Positions 468-57,314 of a stretch of DNA of 64,000 bases are shown piece by piece. The DNA lies in the NCBI GenBank assembly GCA_905221615.1, contig CAJNDT010005917.1:139292-203291 (forward strand), written 5' to 3'. The translations under genes were made by a program, and so were the position numbers. The notes under the pieces are model-generated. The model did no database searches and was not told the DNA's origin. It was given only the letters and a program-made list of their open reading frames with translations. The stretch comes from Symbiodinium sp. CCMP2592 (Eukaryota > Sar > Dinophyceae > Suessiales > Symbiodiniaceae). Position 1 is the first letter of the stretch, and each line of letters starts with the position of its first letter.

Positions 468-1412
468 CTAGGCGGACGGGGGAGGGGGGACGGCCCCTTG
501 ATGCTGGGTAGGGTTGCCGTGCGCAAATTTGCAGCTTGCACCGAACCTGCAGTAACCTGCTGCGAACAACCTACACTGGGGAGCTGCCTGCGCGAATGTA
601 TGACCCGACCGAAGAGCCATTGCCATCTCCCAGCTTGCATTGTCGCGGGTGAGGTCTTCCCAAAACGCGAAGTAGTCGCAGACCTCAGCGTTCGGTCCCC
701 AGCGAGCAAACATAAAGGCGAACTTGCAGGCCTCGAACGCATCCAGCATCGTAACCATGCGTTGAGGCTCGGGTATAACCCGAGAAACCTTGGAGAGGGT
801 GCCGTCCTCTGCCGCGAACAACTTGGTTGAGGTCTCCGGCTTAGTCGTCGAAGAGAACGGGTTCACCTGACGGGAGGAAGTGAAGTGTCGCGAAAACAGA
901 ACTTCTCCTAGCGGTAGTGCTGTGTAAAGGCCCGACTTCTTCTCGGCGACCATGCGACCCAAGGTCTTCTCCGCGCCCAAGAGCAAGTGGGCCGGGAACC
1001 GACGGTTCCTGCCGTCGACCACTGTGGCCTCGTAGTCTGTCACGAAGTCGTTCCAGTAACCTGCTGGGAGCTCCTGAGACTTGTCAGTCGAACTTGCTGA
1101 AGTCGAGGTAAGGGTTGCAGCCGGGGTTGGTGTCGGGGAAGCGGCGGCCTTGCTCTGTGCGATGATATCGAGAAGCTCCAAAACGGTAGCATGGTCAATC
1201 AGGAGCTCGTCGACCGACCTGCGCCTCGTCGAACCGTCGATCTCGATGCCTCCTCGAAGAGGGTCCAGAAAGGTCGTCACCTTGTCTCTGTCGGCGAACA
1301 GGTGGTGGAGGACGCCTGGCACATCGACCCCTTTGGCCTTGAAGAGCAGCCTCACTGTGGGGTGCACTGCGGCCCGGTCACACATCGTGTCGAACGGGAC
1401 AGGCGCGGCCAT
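468..1412 (-). CDS. CCCH zinc-finger, gag-like protein of the recombinase element
   Basis: The 314-residue frame starts at the ATG at 1412, 13 bases after the recombinase stop. An upstream extension of the same frame overlaps the recombinase in another frame and reads as a shadow. Residues about 1-120 are mixed helix with an Ala/Ser/Thr/Pro-rich linker. Near the C-terminus (about residues 279-298) is a CCCH finger with spacing C-x7-C-x5-C-x3-H (CRLFAAGYCRFGASCKFAHG), a nucleic-acid-binding fold. A single C-terminal finger after a helical body is what a nucleocapsid-like protein of a retroelement would show. The gag role is inferred. Confidence 0.6.
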   Translation of the reverse strand: MAAPVPFDTMCDRAAVHPTVRLLFKAKGVDVPGVLHHLFADRDKVTTFLDPLRGGIEIDGSTRRRSVDELLIDHATVLELLDIIAQSKAAASPTPTPAATLTSTSASSTDKSQELPAGYWNDFVTDYEATVVDGRNRRFPAHLLLGAEKTLGRMVAEKKSGLYTALPLGEVLFSRHFTSSRQVNPFSSTTKPETSTKLFAAEDGTLSKVSRVIPEPQRMVTMLDAFEACKFAFMFARWGPNAEVCDYFAFWEDLTRDNASWEMAMALRSGHTFAQAAPQCRLFAAGYCRFGASCKFAHGNPTQHQGAVPPPPSA

Positions 1413-1425
1413 GGCCCAGGCTATC

Positions 1426-3147
1426 CTACGAGGACGACGACGACGAGTTGGACGCTTCCTGCTGTGCGTCCCTGGACTCGAGCACTTCAGCAACCGAACT
1501 CTCTTCAGGAAAACACACTGGGCAGTAACGAAATCCTGGCAAAAGTGTGGGGTTCCTCTGGCAGCTGGCCTTTCCGTACTTCCACAAACCGCAGGACGAT
1601 CTCCACTCGCCCGAAGGCGTCGAACACTCCGTGCTACACGGTTTGTGCGCCAGCTTAGAGCGAACATTATGTACAAGGACACCTTGTCCTCGGAAGCAAT
1701 CTGCGACCACGGCTCGAACTTGGTCGAGGGCGGCCGGAAGCAATGCAAGCTGTTGTGACCTGGGAACCTGAAAGCTCGATGGCGCGACCGATGTGCGATT
1801 CGCCACGGCCTGTGCTGCTCTGGTGGGGTTGGCCAACGCTGCCTCTTGGACGTAGCGGCAGATCGATGCACTCCCCCAGCGACCGATGAGCATGATAACA
1901 TGTAAATCCAGGTCTGCACGTGCGAACAGTTGGGCGCCAGCGACCCGGAATGCATGTTGGGCCCACCTCTGCACCACTTGTCGGGGCCAGTCTTTGAGGT
2001 CTCCTTCACACAAGACCCATGCGAACACCCTTGCCAGCCAAACGACCTGTACCTTAGTCGGGGGGCCTGCTCCGTCTCCGAAGAAAGGTGACTTCGGGGC
2101 CCAGCGGCCAGACTTTCGGAGGCGAACCGCGCATCGCAGCGCCGCATGGTACGGACACAGACACAGTGGGTGCCGACCGAGAGAGCATGCGCATTGCTGC
2201 AAAGGTGTGAAGAGCAATGCCTCGTCACCTGACCTATTGCATCCTGGGTCGTGGCTCCTGGAGCAAATGCACGCATGTGTGCGCGAACAGCCGCGGGCAG
2301 AAGAATCGTTCTTGGATACTGGCAGCTCAAGCTTAACCATACCCTCTCGCGAAAAGGTAACGTCCTCGCAGACAACCGAAGATATCTCGAGTCCTCGGAG
2401 AAGGAACCATGCGGCCACGACACCTGTATCCGCTGGAGCTTCCAACCTGTGGCTGTCGGGGACCTGGAGAGAGGAGTACGCTTTCTCAACGTCCTGTTCG
2501 AAGCTGCGCGAACACGCTTCAAGAGGGAAATCCAACTTTGCTGCAGATGGCCCCATTCCTCTTGTGATGGAGCGCACTGCCTGTGCGACCGCGTGGTCCA
2601 AAGACGGAGGCCATTCGTGACCCTGCGAACGGTGTTCTGACTTGGCCACACTGTAGTACTGGGCCGCCGACCGATAGCGAGCCTGTTTGAAAAGAGCTCC
2701 GACCTTGTCGATGAGTTCGACTGTGACTGGAAGCGGTGGGAGGTTTCTCTGTTCTGCGAGAGAACACCATAGCTTCCACCGAGATTCCCGAGGGCCTCTG
2801 GAGCTCCGTGCGAACTTGTCTTCTTGAAAAGCCTCATCGGCCTTGGACATGGCGTCCTCGCCTTGTATGGCTGCAACGGCCTGTCGCGAACCCCTCTGGT
2901 AAGGATGCACGATCGGTGCATCCGATCGGGACCGATTGCGAACCACGGACCGGTTGAACAGTCTGTCAACGGCCGGGTCTCCGATCCACGCCCGTAGTTG
3001 GGATTTTGTTGTGTTTTCCAGCTGCTCTGCGGACCGGACCCCGTGGGATCGGAGAGGCTCGAGAGCACTGTGAAGATCGAGGCTGCCCAGAATATGTACG
3101 AGGCTGGCGAACGAGCCACGATCATGACTGCACGGAATGTGGTGCAT
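1426..3147 (-). CDS. Tyrosine recombinase (DIRS/Crypton-type integrase)
   Basis: The 573-residue protein starts at the ATG at 3147; the open frame extends a little upstream but without another ATG. Visible catalytic landmarks, in order: R in LLRGLEISS (about residue 249), a K-rich hairpin VSKND (about 280), H-A-F-R (about 399), G-R-W (about 420) and the nucleophile Y in ICRYVQEA (about 430). This is the R..K..HxxR..W..Y set of tyrosine recombinases, which cut and rejoin DNA through a 3'-phosphotyrosine link. Between K and HxxR sits a Cys/His-rich insert (CLCPYHAA). A basic, serine-rich tail ends the protein. It probably integrates a circular copy of the element. Confidence 0.8.
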   Translation of the reverse strand: MHHIPCSHDRGSFASLVHILGSLDLHSALEPLRSHGVRSAEQLENTTKSQLRAWIGDPAVDRLFNRSVVRNRSRSDAPIVHPYQRGSRQAVAAIQGEDAMSKADEAFQEDKFARSSRGPRESRWKLWCSLAEQRNLPPLPVTVELIDKVGALFKQARYRSAAQYYSVAKSEHRSQGHEWPPSLDHAVAQAVRSITRGMGPSAAKLDFPLEACSRSFEQDVEKAYSSLQVPDSHRLEAPADTGVVAAWFLLRGLEISSVVCEDVTFSREGMVKLELPVSKNDSSARGCSRTHACICSRSHDPGCNRSGDEALLFTPLQQCACSLGRHPLCLCPYHAALRCAVRLRKSGRWAPKSPFFGDGAGPPTKVQVVWLARVFAWVLCEGDLKDWPRQVVQRWAQHAFRVAGAQLFARADLDLHVIMLIGRWGSASICRYVQEAALANPTRAAQAVANRTSVAPSSFQVPRSQQLALLPAALDQVRAVVADCFRGQGVLVHNVRSKLAHKPCSTECSTPSGEWRSSCGLWKYGKASCQRNPTLLPGFRYCPVCFPEESSVAEVLESRDAQQEASNSSSSSS

Positions 3148-3812
3148 GGCTAACGAATGTGGGAGCTCGAGGCTGTTACGGCGAAATCGGACCGACAACT
3201 TTCAAGGTAACAACCGGCCTGAGTCACAGAATCTGACGACCCCGACTTGCAGACAGTTCCTTCGAGGACCGACGGGGGAGAAGGGGAAGAGGGGCCCCCC
3301 TTCGAGCAAACGACCTGTGCGACCGAACGGGGTCGACCGGCATGACCTCGAGACCGGAATGCGACACGACTGCAGCAGCGAACATGACTGTAGTACAAGC
3401 GCATCGCACTGCCTGGACCTTGCACGACCTTCCAGAGAAGAAGAAACCTTAACCTTGCACGACCTTCCGGAACAAGACAGCGAACACAAGTAGCTTGCCG
3501 TCATGACTGTGCCTCACACCTGGGACCTACCGCACACGGAAGTTGCAAGTACACTGCAGGGGAGCACTAGCGAACTTGTGTGACAAACTGTTTGTAAAGG
3601 GCGACCTCATACCTGATACCTGGAACCTACCGTGACCTTGGCTTCACGCAGACTACCGCACTTTTGGCTGCGAACAGCAACAGATCTTCCCCGCAGGGTC
3701 GAGAGCCCGAGGGCGAACTGTGAAAGCGTGCTGCAGAAAAGCCCCGCCGAAGGAAACTACGAAAACACTGTTCTGCTCGAGTCACTCTGGGGCGGCGGCA
3801 GCACGCGAACAC
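3148..3812. other. Spacer inside the recombinase element
   Basis: No convincing coding frame was seen between the recombinase start and the next ORF stop. It holds a 17-bp direct repeat (ACCTTGCACGACCTTCC at 3417-3433 and 3452-3468) and several copies of the GCGAAC hexamer that is enriched through the whole element. It may be a leader or control region. Confidence 0.4.
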
Positions 3813-7075: not shown

Positions 7076-30360
<23,285 letters not shown>

Positions 30361-30386: not shown

Positions 30387-30644
30387 CACACTTGACACAT
30401 CGTGTCGCAGGTCTCGAATCACACTCTCAAAGTCAGAAGAGTCAGCTTCTTGAAGTTATTAGAATTGTAAAAACATTGCACGGCTTAAAGGATCGAGGAC
30501 GTCACAAGCTGCAGGTACGTCGACTTGGCGTCCCAAGTCGATTTCACAGGAAAGCAGAAAGGTCTTCGTTGGTGCCAGCCTTCTGCAATCCCCTGGCACC
30601 CCCTGCCTACTTCTCTCCCTTCGAAACAGGGTTGGACACACACA
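30387..30644. repeat. 258-bp direct repeat, left copy
   Basis: By eye it is identical, base for base, to 40947-41204 at a constant offset of 10560. It starts CACACTTGACACATCGTG and ends GGTTGGACACACACA. On the transcribed minus strand this is the 3' copy. Perfect identity suggests recent insertion. Confidence 0.9.
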
Positions 30645-30670
30645 AGCCCGACCGGGCTCATTGCAGGAGC

Positions 30671-30750
30671 TTGCACATCACTTGCACGTCACTTGCACAT
30701 CCCTTGCACATCCCTCGCACGTCACTTGCACGTCCCTTGCACATCCTTTG
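30671..30750. repeat. 11-bp array 1 (3' of last ORF)
   Basis: About seven units of TTGCAC(A/G)TC(A/C)C. It lies between the last ORF and the 3' direct repeat, so it precedes no gene of the element. Confidence 0.85.
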
Positions 30751-30796
30751 CTGCTTTTTCACTGAATTTCATGGGAGAGTCTTATGCTCAAAAAAC

Positions 30797-31273
30797 CTAG
30801 GAGAGTGGGCTGCGAAACCTCAGGAAGCGCAGTCTATGCACTAAGTGCAATTCAACTTCTGCTTCTTCCGCATCAGCATCGAAGTACATGCAACACTGAG
30901 TTGCAGTTTGGTACGCAACGCTGGCCAGTGACACAATACTCACTCGCAAACGCTCCTGTACTAGGTCTACGACAGCTCTCATCCACCTTTTTGACGGGCT
31001 GCTCAACATGGTGCATGCCGCGGCATTGATTTGTGCAAAACGGATGGTGGTATGCAAAGACTGAAAGCCCATGGTCCACTCAACCGAAGAGGACAGTCGA
31101 AACTCCTGTATCCCACGTCGCAGAAAGGTGTACGCCACCATGGTGTCGGTTATGGGTTGTGCCTCTTCTGGGTCATCATTTGGATCGAGACGGGTAATGA
31201 ATGTGATTCTGGTTCTGATCGGCAACACGTACATCAAGATGTTGTCGAGCACGTCAGAAGCAGCCCAATCCAT
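30797..31273 (-). CDS. 158-aa retroelement protein, unknown
   Basis: It starts at an ATG at 31273, 48 bases after array 2. It looks globular: a hydrophobic helical N-terminus (MDWAASDVLDNILMYVLP), an acidic turn (LDPNDDPEEAQP), then mixed helix and strand, ending in a basic tail (LRFLRFRSPLS). I recognise no family. Confidence 0.55.
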   Translation of the reverse strand: MDWAASDVLDNILMYVLPIRTRITFITRLDPNDDPEEAQPITDTMVAYTFLRRGIQEFRLSSSVEWTMGFQSLHTTIRFAQINAAACTMLSSPSKRWMRAVVDLVQERLRVSIVSLASVAYQTATQCCMYFDADAEEAEVELHLVHRLRFLRFRSPLS

Positions 31274-31320
31274 GATGTTCGGGGTCTACACAATTTTCCG
31301 AGTGCTTGAAGCAAAACTCA

Positions 31321-31397
31321 TGCACACCCTTGCATATCACTTGCAATCCGCTTGCACATCACTTGCAATCCGTTTGCACATCCCTTGCTCGTCACTG
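31321..31397. repeat. 11-bp array 2
   Basis: Units alternate TTGCAATCCGC with TTGCACATCAC and end TTGCTCGTCACTG. Array 5 has the same composition and ending. The ORF start lies 48 bases downstream on the minus strand, the same spacing as at array 4. Confidence 0.85.
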
Positions 31398-31427
31398 CTC
31401 TTGAATTGACACAGAGGTGGGCTCTTT

Positions 31428-31736
31428 TTATACCGTAACGACGAAATCGACTGGTTCGAGGGTTTGAGCAGTCGTAACAGGTTCTGTAAACCGAAGATGA
31501 CGAAAGTTTTGTACAAGCTGGAAGGTGTGCAACCTAGGCCACCAGCCGAACTTCTCCCAGAGCTGCATCGCGACAAGGTATTTGGCAACGTTGATGGAAT
31601 CGTTGATTGATAACTGGATGTGGAGAATAATAGTCTCGTGTCCGGTTGCCCGACTGCATACACGAACCCACATCCGAAAATTGTAGTCGCGGCTCGTACT
31701 CCAAGGCAAATTGGCTTCGCGAGCCTTGCGCTTCAT
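31428..31736 (-). CDS. 102-aa retroelement protein, unknown
   Basis: The ATG at 31736 begins MKRKAREANLPWSTSRDYNF; the frame is open upstream but without another ATG. The body is rich in aromatic residues (MWVRV, FGWWPRLHTF). It is the only ORF between arrays 2 and 3. No recognisable domain. Confidence 0.5.
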   Translation of the reverse strand: MKRKAREANLPWSTSRDYNFRMWVRVCSRATGHETIILHIQLSINDSINVAKYLVAMQLWEKFGWWPRLHTFQLVQNFRHLRFTEPVTTAQTLEPVDFVVTV

Positions 31737-31861
31737 GTTGGACAACCTACACAATTTCACTGGATGTCAAATGCTGCAACTCAAGACGGCTCATGCAGAA
31801 ACCTGAAGATGCACAGCACCGCACACGCGCACTCTTTAGTTTCTTTTACCTTAAGCAGGAG

Positions 31862-31962
31862 CTTGCACATCACTTGCACGTCACTTGCACATCCCTTGCA
31901 CATCCCTTGCACGTCACTTGCACGTCCCTTGCACATCCCTTGCAACACCCTTGCAATGACAC
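31862..31962. repeat. 11-bp array 3
   Basis: Eight or nine TTGCAC(A/G)TC(A/C)C units in the same order as array 4, ending TTGCAACACCC TTGCAATGACACTGG. The match with array 4 continues to the stop codon of the preceding ORF. Confidence 0.9.
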
Positions 31963-31997
31963 TGGCACACAAACGCTTGTTTGCAACTGCTCACGTT

Positions 31998-32375
31998 TCA
32001 CTCTGAGACTTCAATTTCTGCTGGAAGTGTTGGGGGCAACTCTGTTGTTTCTTGTAGTTGAAGAGAATTAACGCAATGAGTAGTCACAGATTGAAGAGAA
32101 TGCAAATCCGTCAGCAAGTTCTCCACCACTTCGTTGGTCTTCTGAAGTTTCTGAAACAGTTCTGTGGTGGCGGACATGACTTCCGCCACCTGAGCCTCAG
32201 TGTCCCTGATTTGTGTGGTGAGCACGTCGAGTTGGGCTTGTTGGATCTTCTGGACAGACAATGCTTCTTCGCGAAAATGACGGAATTCACCTCTGATTGT
32301 GATCAGCTCCTGTTGTGTGTAGGAAATCCAGCGTTGAAGAGGTGCCAACGGATCGCACGCGGAGTTGCTCGACAT
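31998..32375 (-). CDS. Coiled-coil retroelement protein
   Basis: From the ATG at 32375 it encodes 125 residues. The same frame is open upstream to 32702 and overlaps the preceding ORF, so the true start is uncertain. Residues about 20-100 show heptad-like spacing (LQRWISYTQQELITIRGEF, then VMSATTELFQKLQKTNEVV), consistent with a long coiled coil and so oligomerisation. It ends ...VSE at a GAG-TGA stop whose surroundings match the stop of the ORF at 33367. Confidence 0.55.
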   Translation of the reverse strand: MSSNSACDPLAPLQRWISYTQQELITIRGEFRHFREEALSVQKIQQAQLDVLTTQIRDTEAQVAEVMSATTELFQKLQKTNEVVENLLTDLHSLQSVTTHCVNSLQLQETTELPPTLPAEIEVSE

Positions 32376-32544
32376 TAGCGCAATGGAACGAGACTTGAGC
32401 AGGGTGCTGCAACACTGTTCTGGTGTGTACCACAACACGAATGAACGAGTACTCTCAGCACTGGCGTCCACTGCACAATCTTTCCTCACTTCAGCACTCG
32501 CATGCGTTACAGATACAAGTGAAATCCTGTCACATCGGGCATAC

Positions 32545-33192
32545 TCAGCTAAGATCAGACGATTGACTGCGTCGCGATCGGCGTGATACACGTCTTCTGG
32601 TAGGCATAGGTTTGGATCTAATCGGAGTACCTGACGCAGCTGAAGATGAAGGTGCGGCCGACGACGAAGCAGCACTGGACACCAAAGGAGGTTCAGACAC
32701 ACGATGCTCCAAGCTTGCTATTGGTACCGGGGGTGGAAAGACAGGAGCACTGGCACTGGGCGGGGGGAAAAAGGGAGGGGGAAGAGGGGGAGGGAGGGGA
32801 GGAGGGGGAAGAGGGGGAGGGCCAGGGGGAGGTAGGGGGCGAGGTGCAGAACTGGAAGAAGGGTTGTCGCTCCCTGCACTCGGTGTACTCCTCGTTGTTG
32901 GCAGAGAGGATGGAGGTGCATAGGGGTGGGATCTGGACGAACGTGATCCTGAAGCTCCGCTACTGCTAGGACGTTCTTCACGCAGGTTTGCTCTATCCCT
33001 CTCATCCAAGCGACGCAACTCTTGCTGCAGCATTCTTTCTGTCCCGTCACGCACAAAAGCTGTCAACTGAAGTACAAGAGCTTGACGAAGTTGAGGTCGT
33101 GATACAAAGTTGAGCAATCTCACACGCGCTGAATGAGTGAGCGCTCTCAGGAACTCATCGATGTTAGGGTCCGAAGGTGGCACCGTCGGCAT
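32545..33192 (-). CDS. Proline-rich retroelement protein (215 aa)
   Basis: The ATG at 33192 lies 48 bases after array 4. Residues 1-70 are helical and charged (LRALTHSARVRLLNF, ERMLQQELRRLDERDRANL). Residues about 100-155 are a polyproline tract. The tail is basic and Arg/Ser-rich (TRRRVSRRSRRSQSS), as in nuclear or RNA-binding proteins. The 3' end overlaps the next frame by up to 158 bases. Confidence 0.55.
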   Translation of the reverse strand: MPTVPPSDPNIDEFLRALTHSARVRLLNFVSRPQLRQALVLQLTAFVRDGTERMLQQELRRLDERDRANLREERPSSSGASGSRSSRSHPYAPPSSLPTTRSTPSAGSDNPSSSSAPRPLPPPGPPPLPPPPLPPPLPPPFFPPPSASAPVFPPPVPIASLEHRVSEPPLVSSAASSSAAPSSSAASGTPIRSKPMPTRRRVSRRSRRSQSSDLS

Positions 33193-33239
33193 GCTTGCTT
33201 ACACAGATGATCTCGTCTCTTGGCCGAAAACACTGCGAT

Positions 33240-33340
33240 GTGCACATCACTTGCACGTCACTTGCACATCCCTTGCACATCCCTTGCACGTCACTTGCAC
33301 GTCCCTTGCACATCCCTTGCAACACCCTTGCAGTGACACT
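33240..33340. repeat. 11-bp array 4
   Basis: Near-identical in sequence and unit order to array 3. The shared module begins at the stop codon of the upstream ORF (GAG TGA AACGTGAGCAGTTGC on the minus strand). Confidence 0.9.
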
Positions 33341-33366
33341 GGCACACAGACGCAACTGCTCACGTT

Positions 33367-33898
33367 TCACTCTGCTTGAACGAAGAACGCGTACTCCAGG
33401 ACACGGGGGCACAACTCTTGCACTGGTAGTTTTTCAGCAAGTGACATGTAATCCTGTACACTTCCGGTGTCCAAATCAAAATAAGACTCAAACGTTTCGG
33501 TTGGGACACTGTGCACCATACCAAAAATGGCAAGCACAGCGGAGGTTAGCTCGGACCAGCATTTTTGCACAAGCCTTTGACCGTGCTGCAGGATTTCGGT
33601 GAAACTGCATCGGATCCCCAAGCGTGATATCACTTGCTTCAGAGGGAACAGGTGAACGCTCACGTTTGTCCTTCTTAGACTTCATGGACTTCGGAGACTT
33701 ATTTGGTGACCGGTCCTTTTTCAGCCTTTTTGACTTCTTGGACTTCTTGATCTTCTTGCACTTGTTGGAGGACTTCTTAACCCAAGACGCTACCTCTGTG
33801 GGTGCCGAGTCTTTGGGAGGATCGAAAGCCGAAGACCAGGAGCTGGCATCATCAGGAAGATCATCATATGGTACCCCTTTGTCTTGACGGGAAGCCAT
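33367..33898 (-). pseudogene. Lys-rich retroelement protein with a frame change
   Basis: From the ATG at 33898 the frame encodes an acidic start (YDDLPDDASSWSSAFDPP), then a strongly basic block (KKIKKSKKSKRLKKDRSP) that looks like a nuclear or nucleic-acid-binding signal, and continues to 33488. Near 33610-33625 protein-like sequence moves to another frame, ending at 33367 (FESYFDLDTGSVQDYMS, then VLEYAFFVQAE). A GGGG run sits at the crossover. It could be a programmed frameshift, a mutation or an assembly error. The last 38 bp also occur inside the RT gene in another frame. Confidence 0.5.
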
Positions 33899-34188
33899 GC
33901 CGGTGTGTCGAGAAATCAAGACGGAAACGGCTGGCGGCACCACATGAGTAAAAAAGAGAAACGCCTTCGGCTTCACGAGAGACAGAGAGAGAGAGGGGAG
34001 AGAGAAAGGGCGAAAGAGACATAAAACCGAGCGTAACGCTCCTACGCGCTGTTTTGCAATGCGCAAAGACGGTTCCACTTCAGTGGTGCAGGCGCTCTAA
34101 TCCAGTAATGATGATTGTCCCAAAAATGTCAATTGGGAAAACGAATTAAGCAGACAAGTCGTCTGCTGTTCCAGCATGACAAAAGCTC

Positions 34189-34446
34189 TCACGGTGATGC
34201 ATCTCGCTTGCGTTTTCGGGGTGACAAAGAATTAGCGCTCTCAGTAGGGAGGTTCAAGTCCACCGAAGAAGTGGTCTGAGAAGCTTGGTGCCACTGATTG
34301 TCAGCAGCCAGACGATCCGAAATCCAGCGAGAGGTGGCGGGAAACCAAGATTTCCACCACGTTTCATTGCCATTGGGTCCTTGATTTTTCACCCAATAAA
34401 ATCGCCACGAAACAGTCGGAGAACGCGATCGGGATCGATCCGACAT
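34189..34446 (-). CDS. 85-aa basic retroelement protein
   Basis: The ATG at 34446 lies 110 bases after array 5. It starts MSDRSRSRSPTVSW and ends with a nuclear-localisation-like SPRKRKRDASP. The middle is rich in Trp (WRFYW, WWKSWFP). The function is unknown; small size and basic ends suggest a nucleic-acid-binding accessory protein. Confidence 0.5.
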   Translation of the reverse strand: MSDRSRSRSPTVSWRFYWVKNQGPNGNETWWKSWFPATSRWISDRLAADNQWHQASQTTSSVDLNLPTESANSLSPRKRKRDASP

Positions 34447-34555
34447 GGCGTGTACCGCTGAAAGCCGAATGCTGGAACTGAACAACGCAATTTAAAGATC
34501 CTAAGCGGACACATTGTATGCAAGACACTGCCAAGAGTCACATTTCTTGCGCTGC

Positions 34556-34667
34556 ACTTGCACAAACCTCGCACACCCTTGCATATCACTTGCAATCCGC
34601 TTGTACATCACTTGCAATCCGCTTGCACATCCCTTGCAATCCGCTTGCACATCCCTTGCTCGTCACT
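34556..34667. repeat. 11-bp array 5
   Basis: Units include TTGCAATCCGC and TTGCACATCCC, ending TTGCTCGTCACTG as in array 2. The next ORF starts 110 bases downstream on the minus strand, as at array 6. Confidence 0.85.
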
Positions 34668-34724
34668 GTAATCTCTCACTTTCGGTCGACCCAATTGAAG
34701 CTGTCAACTGATTGCAGACCGCTT

Positions 34725-37382
34725 TTACCGTTTCATCAAAGCTTCACACAGGCGAAATGGATATCCAAGGTTCGCTAACCACCGTACAAAAGTATGAACG
34801 GCGACTTCTGCTTGGGACGTTGGCCAAGTGTACTTACGGATAAGAGAGATTCTCGACTTCGCACCTGACACCAGCAATCGTTCGCTGCCTGCACTCATGG
34901 GATGTCGAACTTGCCAAAGGAACTTGGGCTGGAGATAATAAATGGTTCGGTTTCGGACATCAATATCAAATCCCAAAAAGTGACCATCACCGACAGCTTC
35001 AAGAACAATCGGAGAACCATAAAAGGTTTCTTGGCTGAAGACTTGAAAAGGCACTGTTTTATGCACCTCGGTGGGTGCAATCACCAAACGATTGTCCACG
35101 TATCTTGCAAGGAACGTAGAAGGGAAGCTCGAGATCTGCGGAAACATTGCTGCCCAACCAAGCTCAGTCATCACCACTGGAAGGGAAGAGAGGACAGGGC
35201 TGATTTGGTTACCTATGGACGTACCATCAACTTGCTTCCACACTCGATTCAACGCCACAAACAAGCCGCATTCGAAGCTGAGACGAACAATGGTAACCAA
35301 GTCGAATGGATCGATGGTCTTCCAATCGAAGTGTCGACGAATATTAGAGATCTTCCCATGAATTGAACGAAAGTGTTTGCTCTTCTCGTTGATGCACACT
35401 GACAATTTGACATCAGGGTGCCTTGCGGTGAACATACGAACCAACATCTCCACTGCTTCCAGAATACGGCTTTGTGGCACTGAGTTAAAGAACCCGACCA
35501 GATCGTCATTGAGCAGTTCAAGTTCAACTTCCAACGGACACTGCCTGAAGACCTGGTGAATATGATGCCAAATCTGTGGGACACTGCGTGACGAAGAACC
35601 AGGCCATACTGTGTTGACCATTTGGTCAATGCAAATCGCTGCTGCCCTAAGAATAGGGCCCAAGGCTGTGTTCTTGTAGCTGATGATGGTTCGTCCTGAT
35701 TTGAAGGCCTTTTTGCGTTTGAGAAAAATCTGTCCCACAGGCAGATTGGCATCCAACTTGAATCCCCAAGGGTACTTGCGAACCAGTGGAGACGGGACGT
35801 GCGCACAAAGAAAAAGCTTCGCTGACGAAACAGACATCGGCATAGGGCTGAACACCTTGACATCTGACCATACTCGATGGCAGGATTGGAAATAGAATCT
35901 GGGGCAAAAAACCATGAGATGAGTGGATTCGTGATCAGCAAGGTGAATTACCCAGTCTGTACAAACGATGTCTTTGAGCTGCAACGCATGACACTCCTGG
36001 AATTTCGGGCATAAGCACATATGGCGAAGGTGAAGCTGCCACTCAGAATGAATGAACTGCAACCACATGGAAAGAGTATGCAAGGGAATAAAATGTGTCT
36101 TGCACCAACTCTTGTACGAAGAGGTCGCCTCCTTGATGTACTTGGCTTTTGATGGAAAGATAAGGGATTTAGAGTTGGCCTGAGCAAGTTCTCTAAGAAC
36201 AGGTTGGCGAAATGACAACGTCTCAAGTCCAGTAGCCACATGTCCATCCACCAAGTCCACATTGGGGTGCTGCTGCTGAAAGTGTTGGCATCTGCATGGA
36301 AGGTGATCAACTGCTGTATCAGCAAGCTTCTTCTCCCACTCAAAGTGATTGTGAAGAATGGAACCCAACGATTGGGGAGCAGACTCTCTCGGCGTCTTAG
36401 AGGGGAGGTGAAACGGGATGCAAATGCCTTTGAACTGCTGAATGGTATGAGACAGAAAAGAAGAGACATGGGCAGCAAAAGAGGGGTGAGACAGAAATGG
36501 TAAAGTGACTGACTTGTTGTGTCGGGGTACAGAGCAGTTACGAAACTTCAACGCAGACTTGAGCAGCTGTACCACTCTAGATCTGAAAGGTTGCTCCATG
36601 ATCTTGGCCATGCGGAACATCGCGTACAACTCTAACGTCGAGACTTTGGCAGATCTGACAATTTTCGCAGCAGAGAAAGATGCTGAGGTCAACGATGCCA
36701 AATCGTACAAGAGCGACCACGCTTGGCTTTTGTCCATCAAACATCGAATCGGAGTACTTGTTGAAGCAGCACGTCTTCGAAATTTGACCCAAAGTCTGGA
36801 AAACAATGAAACATTCTTAAGAGATGGGCGTGGCCTGAGTCTCTTGAATCCCAATGCAGACTTAATGAAGAAACGGTCAATGAACGGTGAATTCAATCTG
36901 GGCTGCCATCGATCAATAAGGACATGCTCTTGCACCCACGCTTGTTTGTAGTCATCATGAACAGACAGACAAAGCGTAGAAAAGTCGAAATACCTGCCCA
37001 GCGAAGCCCAAATACGAATGGCCGGTTCAACTTGAACATATTGCTCACGGAGAACTTGCTTGAGTTTGGATTGTCGGTTGAATTCACGCTTCGAAATAGT
37101 AATTGAAGTACTTCCCACATACATCCATCGGTCTCTTTGCTTGAACGAAGAACGCGTACTCCAGGACACGGGGGCTTTCAAATAAACTGCACAAGGACTC
37201 TGGAACCGTGTGAACGTGTAATCAGACGGCGTGACTCCAGCTTTGCGCAATTTTTCAAGCAGCCGTTGTTCTGGCGAAGTACCCCTGGAGTAATGGAACA
37301 GTAGAATCAGATGACAAAAACCTTGCAACCAAATGGCCATCACTTTGTCCACATGCGGAATGAATTGAAGCACAAACGACAT
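34725..37382 (-). CDS. GIY-YIG endonuclease / reverse transcriptase
   Basis: The 885-residue protein starts at the ATG at 37382. An N-terminal GIY-YIG-like nuclease core spans about residues 85-165 (WMYVGST, then a conserved basic helix, then EHVLIDRWQPRLN). A long linker contains His/Cys-rich stretches (CLCPKFQECHALQ). Reverse transcriptase motifs are C-terminal: A at about 627 (NDDLVGFFNSVP), B at about 719 (GTSIGNQISPVLSS), C at about 759 (ARYVDNRLVI) and a following FLGFDIDV. Motif C reads YVDN, not YxDD, so the second catalytic Asp is replaced by Asn. Nuclease placed before the polymerase matches the permuted Penelope-like arrangement; motif B is unusual for that group. Confidence 0.75.
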   Translation of the reverse strand: MSFVLQFIPHVDKVMAIWLQGFCHLILLFHYSRGTSPEQRLLEKLRKAGVTPSDYTFTRFQSPCAVYLKAPVSWSTRSSFKQRDRWMYVGSTSITISKREFNRQSKLKQVLREQYVQVEPAIRIWASLGRYFDFSTLCLSVHDDYKQAWVQEHVLIDRWQPRLNSPFIDRFFIKSALGFKRLRPRPSLKNVSLFSRLWVKFRRRAASTSTPIRCLMDKSQAWSLLYDLASLTSASFSAAKIVRSAKVSTLELYAMFRMAKIMEQPFRSRVVQLLKSALKFRNCSVPRHNKSVTLPFLSHPSFAAHVSSFLSHTIQQFKGICIPFHLPSKTPRESAPQSLGSILHNHFEWEKKLADTAVDHLPCRCQHFQQQHPNVDLVDGHVATGLETLSFRQPVLRELAQANSKSLIFPSKAKYIKEATSSYKSWCKTHFIPLHTLSMWLQFIHSEWQLHLRHMCLCPKFQECHALQLKDIVCTDWVIHLADHESTHLMVFCPRFYFQSCHRVWSDVKVFSPMPMSVSSAKLFLCAHVPSPLVRKYPWGFKLDANLPVGQIFLKRKKAFKSGRTIISYKNTALGPILRAAAICIDQMVNTVWPGSSSRSVPQIWHHIHQVFRQCPLEVELELLNDDLVGFFNSVPQSRILEAVEMLVRMFTARHPDVKLSVCINEKSKHFRSIHGKISNIRRHFDWKTIDPFDLVTIVRLSFECGLFVALNRVWKQVDGTSIGNQISPVLSSLPVVMTELGWAAMFPQISSFPSTFLARYVDNRLVIAPTEVHKTVPFQVFSQETFYGSPIVLEAVGDGHFLGFDIDVRNRTIYYLQPKFLWQVRHPMSAGSERLLVSGAKSRISLIRKYTWPTSQAEVAVHTFVRWLANLGYPFRLCEALMKR

Positions 37383-37466
37383 GAACTTGCCAACCTCTGT
37401 AATAAGAACATGTGCTGACCGAATCTCCTTTACGGAGAGTTGATTGGAAGCAAGGCTATGTGCAAT

Positions 37467-38633
37467 TCAGACAACCTGAAAGGCTGCCGCTGCAATGCAC
37501 GTAGAGAGACTCTTGATGCCCATCCTAGATGCAAAAGTCGCCGAGATCCCGAATTTGACCGCAAGTTCTTGCAGTTTTGCTTTCTCCTTGCCTCCATAGT
37601 TGATCTGCACAAGCTTGGAGACAGACACAATGTGTTCTTGAAAATCGACAAAGCACTTTCCTAGAGGTCGTTTGAAGCTCTGGATCCACTTGTCGACGTC
37701 CCCCTCTCCTGATCCCTTTAGACGGGCTTTGTGATCTTTCAGGGCTTCGGCAGGAACACTGTCGATCTTACGCTTGAGGTCACTCTCCCAAGTCTGCGGT
37801 GGTGTCCCGGATTGTGGACACGGGGCACTAGATTGCGAGGCAACCGGGAGCTGTGTTTTCAAAGCGGGTTTCGTGGGGGTAACGGGAAGTCCTGCGGCTT
37901 GTAACTGTTCACGGCGGCGATTGAGTTCTTCCGTAACTTGAAGAAACTTCTGAGATTGATCGACGCCTGCAGACACCGGCATGTTGTCAAACATGAGCTG
38001 AACGATCTTGTCAACCATCGGCTGAAACAGAGCTGCACAATCCGTGTTCTTGTTGGGAATGATTGTAGATGAATTAGCGGCCTGAAAGAGATGCGTAGCA
38101 ACTGCATCGATGTCAACTTTGCGATCTCGAAGGTTCTTCGTCACTTGCGACATGAACACTGCTTCGGCAACCGTAGCAACTGGCACAACACTGAAAAACT
38201 TGCCATGACTCAATGCTCGAAGACGCCAATCTGAAACTCCATGAAACAGGAATTCCTGAACAGGAATGCTGAGTGGGTCTTTTCCTGCGATCCCTTTCTT
38301 CCGCGACCACGGGGTGGCTTCGATGGACTTACGAAAGGACAACCCATGAAGCACCGTTGAATCATAATGATCACGATCTGACGCCCATCCATTCGGTAGT
38401 GCAGGAACAAGACCAGGACCTTGATGACATGGCATGGGAGTAGACGGCGAAGATGAAGGTGCCGAAGAAAGTGGAGGCGGAGGTAGTGGAGGTGGCTGAC
38501 TAGCAGGTGCAGACTTGGAGAGGTTGGGATCAGTCCAACTTCCCGAGCTATACGGCTGATAGCGGCGCTGACCCCACGATTGTTGGGACCTCCCGTACCC
38601 TGTGCTGGTGTCCCACTGCCCATTCCATGCCAT
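37467..38633 (-). CDS. 388-aa retroelement protein, gag-like
   Basis: The ATG at 38633 lies 110 bases after array 6; the stop is 84 bases before the RT start. Residues 1-75 are Gln/Ser/Pro-rich with a proline run. The rest is globular and helical (HLFQAANSSTIIP, LFQPMVDKIVQLMF, ELNRRREQLQAAG) with a basic segment near the C-terminus. It is placed directly before the polymerase, as gag is in retroelements. No zinc knuckle is seen, so the gag role is inferred from position. Confidence 0.5.
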   Translation of the reverse strand: MAWNGQWDTSTGYGRSQQSWGQRRYQPYSSGSWTDPNLSKSAPASQPPPLPPPPLSSAPSSSPSTPMPCHQGPGLVPALPNGWASDRDHYDSTVLHGLSFRKSIEATPWSRKKGIAGKDPLSIPVQEFLFHGVSDWRLRALSHGKFFSVVPVATVAEAVFMSQVTKNLRDRKVDIDAVATHLFQAANSSTIIPNKNTDCAALFQPMVDKIVQLMFDNMPVSAGVDQSQKFLQVTEELNRRREQLQAAGLPVTPTKPALKTQLPVASQSSAPCPQSGTPPQTWESDLKRKIDSVPAEALKDHKARLKGSGEGDVDKWIQSFKRPLGKCFVDFQEHIVSVSKLVQINYGGKEKAKLQELAVKFGISATFASRMGIKSLSTCIAAAAFQVV

Positions 38634-38742
38634 GGTTTCAGATCTATCGACAAATCTGAGTGCGCGGAATCGCTAACGACACTTCGAATCAAAAGGCTCC
38701 GTAGGCAAACAAACCTGCTCAAGTTGCTGCCAAACTGCTACA

Positions 38743-38838
38743 CTTGCACATCGCTTGCACAACTCTTGCATCACACTTGCTCCTCTCACTTGCAGTACAC
38801 TTGCACGTCCCTTGCAACACACTTGCACGTCCCTTGCT
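38743..38838. repeat. 11-bp array 6 (diverged)
   Basis: The units are less regular (TTGCACATCGC, TTGCACAACTC, TTGCAGTACAC, TTGCACGTCCC), with about nine TTGC starts. It separates the 533-aa ORF from the 388-aa ORF. Confidence 0.8.
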
Positions 38839-38947
38839 GGCACAGCTCGCAATCTTAACTGGCATGTTTTCGACACATGTATACGTGCAAAGCAGGTGAC
38901 AACGGAAGAGACTTGAGAACGTGGCCGGTCAAAGCAGCATGTTGCAC

Positions 38948-40549
38948 TCAGACCCTCCAAAAAACAAGAAGCGCTTCCGGGATGAAACATGAAGAGCGAA
39001 AGACCCATCTGCCATCTTTGGCACGGGCAACATCACGAATGTAGCTGCAGGAATGGTCACCTTCGACCCCTCCCATGGGGATTCTTGAGTGGGGAGGCGT
39101 GAGGGATCCTTGACGATTAAATGCATGTCCGAAAATGCACACCGGACGCTCACTCAGAATGCCACCGTACTTGGCCGCTGCCTCTTGTGCTTGTTCTGCA
39201 TCTGAAGTGTGAGCCCTAGCATAGAAGGAAATTGGTGGGGACCACTTGCTGTCACTAGCATCCCACCAAGATGGTCGGATCGCTCCCTCAAGGAGGATTG
39301 ATGCAGCCGCTGCCACTGTTGTGTTGTGTGCAACAGGAGAACGAGCAATCCCTGCTGCAGAAGTATGCGACCTGATCATGGTCCTCTCAAAGTGGGTGAA
39401 GTGGATGCTCAAGCACTTGCACGAACTCGACAAAGAACGAAGCTCCACAGAATGAATGTTTGCGGCTTGGTCAGCTGCTGCAATTGCCTGAGAGACATAC
39501 TTCAATGCTGTCGAATTGACAGAGTGGGGAGGAAGACCTAACAGGCTGATCAGATAGTCCGCCGTGGTTTGCATCAAAGAGCTGGGAACCTGCAACTCAA
39601 GATTGGCCGGTATCTTTGTCGAAATCTCACATGCCGATTTCATACGGCCAGGGCTGGAACTGATCAAGTGACGTAGAGCAGTAAACATGGGGTATAATGC
39701 GACCCAATTGAAGCTAGATGAGTACACGCGTATCAGCTTCGCTTCTTCATCGCGCACTTCCAACCCACGAAGTTCAGGAATCACGAAGAAGTTTGAATCT
39801 TGCTCCCACTCAACTTCCACATGCCCTTTGAGAAGAGATCGATTCTCAAAATGCTCATACGAGTCTTGCAAGGGTCTAACTCGAAAGACGTAAGTCTGGT
39901 CCGCACTGAGCTGCCACCCTACGCGATCTGCATGAGTACCAGGAATCTGATCACAAATTGCACGAAGTCGAATGCTGTTAGGGTCTGCAACGAGAGAAAC
40001 TTCGCTTCCAGGAACTTGCCGAAGTCGCTTTGTTGGCTGGGACGAATCATCCGTTTGGTACGTGATGGCTGACTGCTGGCTCTGACCAGATGCTATTGAC
40101 TGATTCTGTTGAGAAACAACAGACTGCTGAATGTCAAGCAAATTGTTAAGGCCAGCATACACATCTCTGTGGCCTCGGACATGTGTCAAGTTTGCCGACA
40201 TGATCGCTGAGTATTCAGCGAAATCAGCCACCGAACGAAACGACAACCGGAAACCTGTGCCGTCTGCATGAAGAGTGATTGCAGGAGGAACCTCTTGCTG
40301 TAGAACCTGCCGATCATTTACAGCACGTGCAGCAATCAAGGTAGGAGTTACATCTGTAGTTCCCGCTCCAACATTGGATGCAGAAGGGACCGGCAAAGAA
40401 GAAGATGAAGCAGGCGCCGGGCAAACTGCAAGAGTGGGGGGTGGAGGGGGGAAGGCGGGAGGGGGAAGGGGAGGGGGGGGTGGAATCCACTTCGCTGTGG
40501 TACCACGGGCGGGGGCAGGGGCAGAAGCGGGGAGGGGAGGGGGAGGCAC
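38948..40549 (-). CDS. 533-aa proline-rich retroelement protein, possible ART-like C-terminus
   Basis: The frame has no ATG at its 5' end; the position given is a GTG. A neighbouring frame has ATG at 40644 (MDASGKRRSTRTSTPP) and would join this one if a base were added in a run of nine C, so a frame slip or length variant in the polyproline tract is likely. After 70 proline-rich residues the protein is globular. Near residues 405-480 HNTTVAAAASILLEGAIRPS and FYARAHTSDAEQA recall the first motifs of ADP-ribosyltransferase-like folds (H..T....A..IL..G). That resemblance is weak. It is the 5'-most ORF of the element. Confidence 0.45.
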   Translation of the reverse strand: MPPPPLPASAPAPARGTTAKWIPPPPPLPPPAFPPPPPTLAVCPAPASSSSLPVPSASNVGAGTTDVTPTLIAARAVNDRQVLQQEVPPAITLHADGTGFRLSFRSVADFAEYSAIMSANLTHVRGHRDVYAGLNNLLDIQQSVVSQQNQSIASGQSQQSAITYQTDDSSQPTKRLRQVPGSEVSLVADPNSIRLRAICDQIPGTHADRVGWQLSADQTYVFRVRPLQDSYEHFENRSLLKGHVEVEWEQDSNFFVIPELRGLEVRDEEAKLIRVYSSSFNWVALYPMFTALRHLISSSPGRMKSACEISTKIPANLELQVPSSLMQTTADYLISLLGLPPHSVNSTALKYVSQAIAAADQAANIHSVELRSLSSSCKCLSIHFTHFERTMIRSHTSAAGIARSPVAHNTTVAAAASILLEGAIRPSWWDASDSKWSPPISFYARAHTSDAEQAQEAAAKYGGILSERPVCIFGHAFNRQGSLTPPHSRIPMGGVEGDHSCSYIRDVARAKDGRWVFRSSCFIPEALLVFWRV

Positions 40550-40704
40550 AGGGAGAAGGGGGAAGGAGGAGGGTGGAGGGGGAGGTGGGGGAGGAGGGGG
40601 GGGGTTGATGTGCGGGTACTGCGTCTCTTTCCTGAAGCATCCATGGCAAACTGATCAGCAACTACCCAGAAGTACAGCTCAGGTACTCAATCTGTAGCCA
40701 AAGA

Positions 40705-40905
40705 CCTGCGACAAGTCAGCGAAAAAGTCAGATTCGGGAAAGTCGATTTGATCATAGACAGTCAATGGAAAGTCAGCATTCAGGTTTCGGTAGAAGCATT
40801 CGGTGAAGACTCACTGAGAAAGTCAGCTTGCAAGCACGGATATAGAATCAGGGAAAGTCATCCAATGCTTATACAGTCAATCGGGAAAGTCAACGCCAGA
40901 GCTAC
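40705..40905. promoter_or_regulatory. AGTCA iteron-like region upstream of first ORF
   Basis: Around ten copies of (A)AAGTCAG or CAGTCAA in 200 bp, between the 5' direct repeat and the first ORF. Two more lie inside the direct repeat (TCAAAGTCAGAAGAGTCAGC). Irregular spacing and position suggest a binding-site cluster; the role is inferred. Confidence 0.4.
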
Positions 40906-40946
40906 CTCTGGGAGACACGGCGCCCATAGGGAATGCCGTTGTGAAG

Positions 40947-41193
40947 CACACTTGACACATCGTGTCGCAGGTCTCGAATCACACTCTCAAAGTCAGAAGA
41001 GTCAGCTTCTTGAAGTTATTAGAATTGTAAAAACATTGCACGGCTTAAAGGATCGAGGACGTCACAAGCTGCAGGTACGTCGACTTGGCGTCCCAAGTCG
41101 ATTTCACAGGAAAGCAGAAAGGTCTTCGTTGGTGCCAGCCTTCTGCAATCCCCTGGCACCCCCTGCCTACTTCTCTCCCTTCGAAACAGGGTT

Positions 41194-41204
<11 letters not shown>
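40947..41204. repeat. 258-bp direct repeat, right copy
   Basis: Identical to 30387-30644. On the minus strand this is the 5' copy. It merges at its outer end into an (AC)n run (41191-41240). Confidence 0.9.
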
Positions 41205-41244
<40 letters not shown>

Positions 41245-56241: not shown

Positions 56242-57314
56242 CTGAGTCTCCCCAAAGCACAACAAAATTCTAGAAACCCTAAACTTTCGAAATGCTACAA
56301 CCTTAAACCCTAAACCCCTAAACCCTAAACCCTAAACTCTAGGAACCCTAAACTTTCGAAATGCTAAAACCCTAAACCCTAAACCCCTAAACCCTAAACT
56401 CTAGGAACCCTAAACTTTCGAAATGCTAAAACCTTAAACCCTAAACCCCTAAACCCTAAACCCTAGGAACCCTAAACTTTCGAAATGCTAAAACCCTAAA
56501 CCCTAAACCCCTAAACCCTAAACCCTAAACTCTAGGAACCCTAAACTTTCGAAATGCTAAAACCCTAAACCCTAAACCCCTAAACCCTAAACCCTAAACT
56601 CTAGGAACCCTAAACTTTCGAAATGCTAAAACCCTAAACCCTAAACCCCCAAACCCAAAACCCTAAACTCTAGGAACCCTAAACTTTCGAAATGCTAAAA
56701 CCCTAAACCCTAAACCCCTAAACCCTAAACTCTAGGAACCCTAAACTTTCGAAATGCTAAAACCCTTAACCCTAAACCCTAAACCCTAAACCCTAAATTC
56801 TAGGAACCCTAAACTTTCGAAATGCTAAAACCCTAAACCCAAAACCCCTAAACCCTAAACTCTAGGAACCCTAAACTTTCGAAATGCTAAAACCCTAAAC
56901 CCTAAACCCCCAAAGCCAAAACCCTAAACTCTAGGAACCCTAAACTTTCGAACTGCTAAAACCCTAAACCCTAAACCCAGATCCGGGGCACCTCTTGCTC
57001 GCGCGACTTCGCCGGAGGCATGGTACAAGCCTGGGGGCTCGGAGCTCGCTGCAACTTTGAGAACCCAGAACTGGTCCATGGTTGGGACAGTATGAAACAT
57101 GATAATTTCCACTCCTTCTTGGGCTGAAGTACCCATGAACATGAAAAATGTTACCCAACTATGTCAAAGAGAAGGATGGAATGACTAGAATCGCCAGTGT
57201 CCGTCGACAGTTCTCAGGCAGCTGCCGCAAACTCTTTGGAGTCCAAAAACCTCGGGACTGATGATGCCAGGTCATGATCCCAGCAAAAACCCCAGCACAC
57301 CATCACAACAAGAC

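Follow-up and report, generated by a model that had tools for sequence, protein, structure and literature searches.

The window, by which we mean the whole 64,000-nucleotide stretch of DNA analysed, contains an element of about 10.8 kb (30387..41204) bounded by two direct repeats that lie 10,560 apart. A first-pass annotation had described a retroelement with about nine ORFs on one strand, and nine ORFs were left once their starts had been corrected, all of them on the minus strand. They fall into six gene cassettes, each closed by an array of 11-bp repeats. From the 5' to the 3' end of the element, the features are:

41205..41244, minus strand: (GT)n tract adjoining the 5' end (TRF)
40947..41204, minus strand: 5' terminal repeat (pseudo-LTR), 258 nt, 100% identical to 30387-30644
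38948..40644, minus strand: ORF 1, proline-rich protein, 565 aa in 8/12 copies; homologues found; pN/pS 0.27
38740..38837, minus strand: 11-bp array after ORF 1 (TRF; units counted in copies)
37467..38633, minus strand: ORF 2, 388 aa, N-terminus proline-rich, core conserved; five homologues; pN/pS 0.18
34725..37382, minus strand: ORF 3, 885 aa, GIY-YIG-like N-terminus, CxC pair and putative reverse transcriptase (RT), from motifs and homologues; pN/pS 0.09
34578..34659, minus strand: 11-bp array after the RT gene (TRF; units counted in copies)
34189..34446, minus strand: ORF 4, basic Ser-rich protein, 85 aa; pN/pS 0.20 without copy C5305, 0.50 with it
33488..33898, minus strand: ORF 5, Lys-rich protein, 136 aa, Lys+Arg 24%; pN/pS 0.22
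33367..33410, minus strand: 44-nt piece downstream of ORF 5, 95% identical to RT-gene positions 37132-37175 (family D6)
33241..33332, minus strand: 11-bp array after ORF 5 (TRF; missing from the C2324 copy)
32545..33192, minus strand: ORF 6, basic protein, 215 aa in 7/12 copies, Pro 21%; pN/pS 0.36
31998..32375, minus strand: ORF 7, acidic protein, 125 aa; pN/pS 0.12
31862..31955, minus strand: 11-bp array after ORF 7 (TRF; units counted in copies)
31428..31736, minus strand: ORF 8, basic protein, 102 aa; pN/pS 0.07
31321..31388, minus strand: 11-bp array after ORF 8 (TRF; units counted in copies)
30797..31273, minus strand: ORF 9, 158 aa; pN/pS 0.20
30670..30751, minus strand: 11-bp array after ORF 9, ahead of the 3' terminal repeat (TRF; units counted in copies)
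30387..30644, minus strand: 3' terminal repeat (pseudo-LTR) and 3' end of the element; other copies share this end and then run into other flanks

A dinoflagellate host is plausible; a search of the window for the DinoSL core found none, which is neutral with regard to the host.

Full-length copies of the RT gene number at least 51 in the host genome and are 96-100% identical; the RT frame is free of stops in 48 of the 51 full-length matches. The annotation had called for other copies with the same gene order, and such copies exist: stretches fetched for 11 of the 50 further full-length matches (C4926 only in part) were collinear with the window wherever they covered it, with the genes in the same order. 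Among them, C5305 carries an inverted segment, C71 has Ns on its 5' side, and C979 is the one locus with a head-to-tail tandem pair. Many insertions lie far inside contigs. The flanks of nine copies (excluding C979 and C4926; low-complexity filter on, first 60 bases omitted) were unrelated except around contig C514, whose 5' flank is that of C2324 (440/440 bases) and whose 3' flank is that of C71 (240/240), so that it is probably chimeric; its mismatched terminal repeats, considered as pseudo-LTRs of separate origin, were rejected on the same ground. This contig reveals repeat errors in the assembly and to that extent favours the view that a host gene cluster or an assembly duplication merely resembles an element, but such duplication, also raised as a source of the end repeats, accounts for at most that one contig. 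The 51 RT matches are spread over many contigs, the remaining compared flanks are unrelated, the boundaries fall at (GT)n runs, and the RT genes of ten copies (C514 left out) differ by 0.2-2.4%, all of which already contradicts this highly improbable explanation. Given the 50 further matches, the shared order and the unrelated flanks, the locus reflects neither chance nor a single assembly duplication.

The terminal repeats are identical in the window, as had been noted, but their length of 258 bp proved peculiar to this copy: elsewhere they reach 438 bp and have different cores. Within single copies the repeats are 99.4-100% identical (six copies including the window, 258-438 bp), while between copies they fall into four core types; the start of the 5' repeat (TGTGTGTCC) and its end (CAAGTGTG) are common to other copies. 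An alternating G/T run of 9-59 bases adjoins the 5' end in all eight readable copies (C514 left out), against a background in which 8 such bases precede 0.57% of window positions; this is the microsatellite insertion bias expected of Penelope-like elements (PLEs) with an N-terminal endonuclease (EN), and the pseudo-LTRs and tandem copies expected of them are likewise both present. One of the eight copies with a readable 5' end, in a sample selected for complete RT, is 5'-truncated: C5305 retains its 3' end but has no 5' repeat, starting instead at a (TG)n tract within the 5' leader. The 3' flanks of C54 (at 81.7 kb) and C236 are not TG-rich past the element's own TGTG, and target-site duplications are unreadable because the target is itself a TG repeat.

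Could these instead be true LTRs, belonging to an LTR retrotransposon that has captured extra ORFs? The near-identity of the repeats within copies and their shared ends would suit such an element, but the two repeats are unequal in C236 (the 5' repeat falls 60 bp short of the 3' repeat) and in C979 (the last of three is 272 bp vs 347), the C5305 copy begins at a TG tract in the absence of a 5' repeat, Pfam matches for ten ORFs and for alignments of ORFs 1-3 included no integrase, protease or RNase H, and the RT protein has a CxC pair and, at its N-terminus, nuclease-like motifs. We therefore regard an LTR element as unlikely. Target-primed insertion with pseudo-LTRs, as in PLEs, fits better, given the GT-run 5' junctions, the 5'-truncated copy and the head-to-tail tandem.

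The protein encoded by ORF 3 was said to join a GIY-YIG core to RT motifs, and every motif could be located. Its N-terminus follows the pattern AVYLK...MYVGST...R...EHVLI...LN, a CxC motif lies at residue 362 (PCRC; PCxC in the homologues P0001, P0002 and P0003), and the RT motifs are NDDLVGFFNSVP (625), GTSIGNQISP (720) and RYVDN (760). The GIY-YIG-like, CxC and RT motifs are conserved in relatives, the GIY-YIG-like residues wherever that part of the protein exists. The unusual YVDN of motif C is real: two relatives at 37% identity share it, as do 11/11 copies with a complete RT, and this conservation marks it as a feature of the lineage and not an error. Pfam gave no GIY-YIG match among the four proteins scanned, nor with the N-terminal 200 aa alone, for which the PHROGs matches were all to families without a known function (best 0.001). 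The putative GIY-YIG domain is proposed from its motif. RVT_1 missed the window RT and gave two matches in relatives (0.064 and 0.0022), both below cutoff, as was an NCBIfam RT match (30.9 bits vs a cutoff of 300); the relative P0003 matched an RT profile at E 1.5e-7, yet below the cutoff of that family. The RT assignment is thus a putative one, resting on the motifs and on the weak match of a relative to an RT profile. An AlphaFold model of the RT protein from a four-row alignment was unusable (pLDDT 38.6).

All nine ORFs look to be maintained by selection. Each has one modal length, shared by 8, 9, 11, 12, 10, 7, 9, 11 and 11 of 12 copies for ORFs 1 to 9, respectively (one of the 12 fetched only in part). 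When pN/pS was calculated from modal-length ORFs (7-11 copies per ORF, C5305 being left out for ORF 4 and C514 still counted despite its probable chimerism), values were 0.07-0.36 in frame, compared with 0.77-4.0 in the other two frames. In the window copy of ORF 1, the frame from the ATG at 40644 stops after 98 aa and 533 aa stay open. At least nine homologues of ORF 1 were found among 8000 candidates scored, only proteins with shared exact words being scored in the homologue searches; two of them, P0016 and P0017, have sequence resembling the RT N-terminus at their end. Linkage elsewhere is partial: the ORF 1 homologue P0010 and the ORF 2 homologue P0007 both report two contigs, the longest 29,218 bp. 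Together with the collinear multicopy loci, the terminal repeats and the selection on nine ORFs, this linkage bears out the original description of a nine-ORF retroelement. The proline-rich, Lys-rich and small basic proteins of that description are also present, but the coiled-coil type appears only as weak sub-cutoff matches of ORF 7. A fusion of ORFs 6 and 7 by frameshift was rejected, as the upstream frame has stops in 5/11 copies, and an ADP-ribosyl/phosphotransferase fold for the ORF 1 C-terminus was dropped for want of profile or structure support. The ORF 2 profile drew three weak matches from the PDB, the best (0.028) a dehydrogenase.

ORF 2 lies in the same frame as the RT across one TGA, invariant in 12/12 copies, and only four linker columns vary (one synonymous and three non-synonymous singletons); a readthrough fusion of the two is conceivable. 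This arrangement, nine selected genes, and proline-rich stretches in three proteins plus a Lys-rich one are what could be cited for an integrated virus-like element, that is, a lineage of retroelements equipped with particle genes and using an RT of the Penelope type. Such an origin seems improbable: in Pfam no family of capsid, envelope, helicase or polymerase proteins scored above cutoff, viral contigs searched by tblastn (RT and the ORF 2 alignment as queries) held no relative, phage records had no RT match, and the structure prediction for ORF 1 failed (ten-row alignment, pLDDT 31.2). More speculatively, and with somewhat better though still doubtful prospects, the family could be a separate Penelope-type lineage with a virus-like nine-gene genome, in which a Gag-like ORF 2 would be in frame with the RT over the single TGA, basic proteins would bind nucleic acid, array-closed cassettes would organise expression, and a packaged RNP or particle would target TG microsatellites.

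Our preferred reading, to which we assign a probability of about 0.7, is an autonomous, recently active family of Penelope-type retroelements with the nuclease domain first and eight genes besides the RT. The data fit a nine-gene, nuclease-plus PLE-type retroelement, a class assigned here provisionally from architecture, insertion pattern and motifs. The earlier Penelope-like reading agrees with these three lines of evidence, but its GIY-YIG domain goes unrecognised by Pfam. In the cycle we envisage, the transcript of a single copy or a tandem would yield mRNAs for the six cassettes, each with its terminal 11-bp array, probably through trans-splicing and polyadenylation. The GIY-YIG-like domain of the RT protein may nick a (CA)n/(TG)n tract, whereupon the TG-rich 3' end of the element RNA could pair with the nicked strand and prime reverse transcription; completion would leave copies with a 5' pseudo-LTR, tandems or 5' truncations. 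The eight accessory proteins would probably serve in RNP packaging, transport or nucleic-acid binding.

Nuclease-bearing PLEs have been described as compact one-ORF elements. With nine separate genes kept by purifying selection, the family would demonstrate that nuclease-plus PLEs can acquire a complex life cycle involving many genes, independently of the rotifer Terminons, and PLEs would extend to alveolates if the host is a dinoflagellate. The many near-identical open copies make each accessory gene and the 11-bp arrays directly testable.

Among known systems, Chlamys and Naiad are reportedly the N-terminal endonuclease-plus PLEs described by Craig et al. in 2021. Elements of this kind have a CxC motif between EN and RT, insert preferentially at microsatellites, and typically have one ORF in about 4-6 kb, although this is not strictly defining. 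The present element resembles Chlamys and Naiad in its putative nuclease-like domain ahead of the RT, CxC pair, pseudo-LTRs, tandems and microsatellite insertion, and in that no hammerhead or other RNA family was found at Rfam gathering scores (two matches, E 1 and 3.5, were at chance level). It departs from their compact, one-ORF plan in having nine ORFs under selection, grouped in six cassettes that each end in an array, a size of about 10.8 kb, YVDN in motif C and perhaps an alveolate host.

PLEs typically carry one or two ORFs (PMC6431247), and Terminons are Athena-type PLEs of bdelloid rotifers, EN-deficient and telomere-attached, with hammerhead motifs and lengths up to 40 kb (PMC6431247, PMC5408684). 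Like Terminons, our element is large and has numerous accessory ORFs alongside a putative PLE-type RT; in place of their EN deficiency, telomere attachment and 3' hammerhead, it has nuclease-like motifs and insertions at TG runs, with no hammerhead found in Rfam. Two further papers give pseudo-LTRs, partial tandems, 5' truncation and microhomology at the 5' junction as hallmarks of PLEs (PMC3846280, PMC11167929). On that description the element shares all four with canonical Penelope, whose EN is C-terminal, and differs from it in domain order, gene number and size.

The host genome (G000; 1.098 Gb in 5,383 contigs, the window being part of contig C5055) was searched with the 885-aa RT of the nine-ORF retroelement as query, the feature under study being:

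30387–41204, minus strand: element of 10,818 bp, bounded by two direct repeats and carrying nine genes.

Scores were obtained for 51 out of 1,224 candidates, all 51 covering residues 1–885 at 96–100% identity and 48 of them free of stops; these copy counts are lower bounds. We retrieved 20 stretches, which between them contain 11 of the other 50 copies. The first-pass annotation had called for further full copies with the same gene order, and seven indeed align collinearly with the window along nearly their entire body: those on C54 (81.7 kb), C236, C2324, C514, C54 (30.7 kb) and C2447, and the first on C979. The second C979 copy is collinear and interrupted, that on C5305 starts within the 5′ leader and carries a 375-bp inverted segment, that on C71 has Ns on its upstream side, and that on C4926 was retrieved in part only. 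Long aligned blocks were 90–99% (mostly 95–99%) identical to the window, and among ten copies (all but C514 and C4926) the RT genes diverged by 0.2–2.4% (median 0.9%).

Given these copies, we compared the ORFs in 12 of them, the window copy, whose ORF 1 is broken close to its start, included.

Modal length, copies having it (of 12) and in-frame pN/pS (7–11 copies per ORF, modal length only, which favours intact copies; C514 included)
ORF 1: 565 aa; 8; 0.27
ORF 2: 388 aa; 9; 0.18
RT (ORF 3): 885 aa; 11; 0.09
ORF 4: 85 aa; 12; 0.20
ORF 5 (Lys-rich): 136 aa; 10; 0.22
ORF 6 (Pro-rich): 215 aa; 7; 0.36
ORF 7 (acidic): 125 aa; 9; 0.12
ORF 8: 102 aa; 11; 0.07
ORF 9: 158 aa; 11; 0.20

Bootstrap upper limits across the nine ORFs were at most 0.69 (codons resampled, tree of copies ignored), and the ORF 4 value rises to 0.50 if the inverted-segment copy is kept. 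Read in the two alternative frames, these stretches give ratios of 0.77–4.0, so that all nine ORFs look like coding genes maintained by selection.

In copies whose spacers were covered, arrays with an 11-bp repeat unit (TGCAAGNGATG-like in sense orientation) lie behind ORF 1, RT, ORF 5, ORF 7, ORF 8 and ORF 9, the exception being C2324, which has none behind ORF 5. In the ORF 2/RT, ORF 4/5 and ORF 6/7 spacers the unit count was zero wherever both neighbours were present. This placement splits the genes into six cassettes, three of them with two ORFs. The element accounts for 30 of the 34 units on the minus strand of the window. At 37382–37467, ORF 2 and RT share one frame, separated by a single TGA, invariant in 12/12 copies, and then an open 28-codon linker; readthrough is possible. 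Downstream of ORF 5, a 44-nt stretch (33367–33410) is a 95% identical copy, in the same orientation, of the RT-gene piece 37132–37175.

The 258-bp direct repeats reported in the first-pass annotation were borne out, both being of that length and identical. Comparison of the 5′ with the 3′ terminal repeat inside a copy gave 99.4–100% identity in six copies, with four differences in 2,036 aligned bases (window, 258; C54 (81.7 kb), 348; C236, 273; C2324, 371; C54 (30.7 kb), 438; C2447, 348). The 5′ repeat of C236 is 60 bp shorter than the 3′ one. Between copies, the repeats have ends and short blocks in common and fall into four core types. The cores (30387–30644 and 40947–41204 in the window) differ strongly among copies with mostly 95–99% identical bodies, which suggests that terminal repeats have been exchanged.

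Directly outside the 5′ end, 9–59 alternating G/T bases were present in 8/8 readable independent copies; as background, 0.57% of window positions (both strands) come after eight such bases. The 3′ end is CAAGTGTG, and the flank beyond is TG-rich in most copies, the exceptions being C54 (81.7 kb) and C236. The C5305 copy lacks a 5′ terminal repeat but has its 3′ end; it begins within the leader, directly abutting a (TG)n run. C979 holds two head-to-tail copies with one common repeat (first two repeats 347 bp, last 272). PLEs are described, in the accessible text of PMC3846280 and PMC11167929, as having a target-primed insertion pattern with pseudo-LTRs. The ends and junctions seen here correspond to the same pattern, which argues against integrase-type LTR insertion.

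Comparison of the sequences flanking nine copies, with low-complexity filtering and without the first 60 bases, gave a single match, between the 5′ flanks of C2324 and C514. The 3′ flanks of C514 and C71 are the same over 240/240 bases, and the two terminal repeats of C514 differ. Because its 5′ flank is common to C2324 and its 3′ flank to C71, C514 probably represents an assembly chimera.

C2324, C514 and C71: loci L013, L014, L019, L020, L017 and L018, with shared flanks.

Among 5.8 billion database proteins (6,507 candidates scored), we found three RT homologues. P0002 and P0003 are 37% identical to the window RT over 99 and 89%, and P0001, without the RT core, is 75% identical over 54%. 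The CxC pair is kept in 3/3, and RYVDN in both homologues having the core (P0002, P0003). P0003, which starts inside the nuclease part and is without MYVGST, gave weak matches to a profile for group II RTs (30.9 bits against a cutoff of 300; E = 1.5e-7) and to RVT_1 (0.0022, below cutoff). Judging from motif order and these weak profile matches of relatives, ORF 3 appears to encode a reverse transcriptase. Its N-terminal pattern (Y, YVG, R, E, N) agrees with the GIY-YIG definition in the available text of PMC1564403; from this motif pattern the N-terminus is a putative GIY-YIG domain, and no Pfam match supporting GIY-YIG was found in the protein.

P0010 and P0007, homologues of ORF 1 and ORF 2, are each recorded on two contigs, with a maximum length of 29,218 bp; from this matching length we infer that they lie on one contig. 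In a four-sequence comparison, the C-terminal ends of two further ORF 1 homologues, P0016 and P0017, match the RT N-terminus, with E values against P0002 of 2e-6 and 2e-8 and against the window RT of 1e-4 and 2e-5. Together, these observations point to linkage of ORF 1, ORF 2 and RT at other loci, probably of other species.

Elsewhere in the window, two long minus-strand frames overlap at 468–3201. Measured from stop to stop, one spans 591 aa and has no Pfam match, and the other spans 893 aa and carries a CCCH zinc finger at its end (Pfam, 1.8e-5). Related blocks in two pairs lie at 12625–15690 (one pair 84% identical over 624 aligned bp, the other 89% over 419), a 789-bp GT tract at 22961–23749, and 10.8 copies of a 69-bp unit rich in telomere-like CCCTAAA words at 56265–56978.

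According to the accessible part of a 2025 Ectocarpus paper, PLEs were unreported in TSAR before it. Neither a multi-ORF nuclease-plus PLE nor a dinoflagellate PLE was found among the matches listed in the open-licence literature, as far as these sources could be consulted, which leaves novelty unproven. The element is most likely a Penelope-type, nuclease-plus retroelement turned nine-gene. Its nearest known systems we take to be the PLEs with an N-terminal endonuclease (EN+), Chlamys and Naiad. In gene number it comes nearest to the Terminons, rotifer PLEs described in the available portions of PMC6431247 and PMC5408684 as telomere-attaching and without a nuclease.
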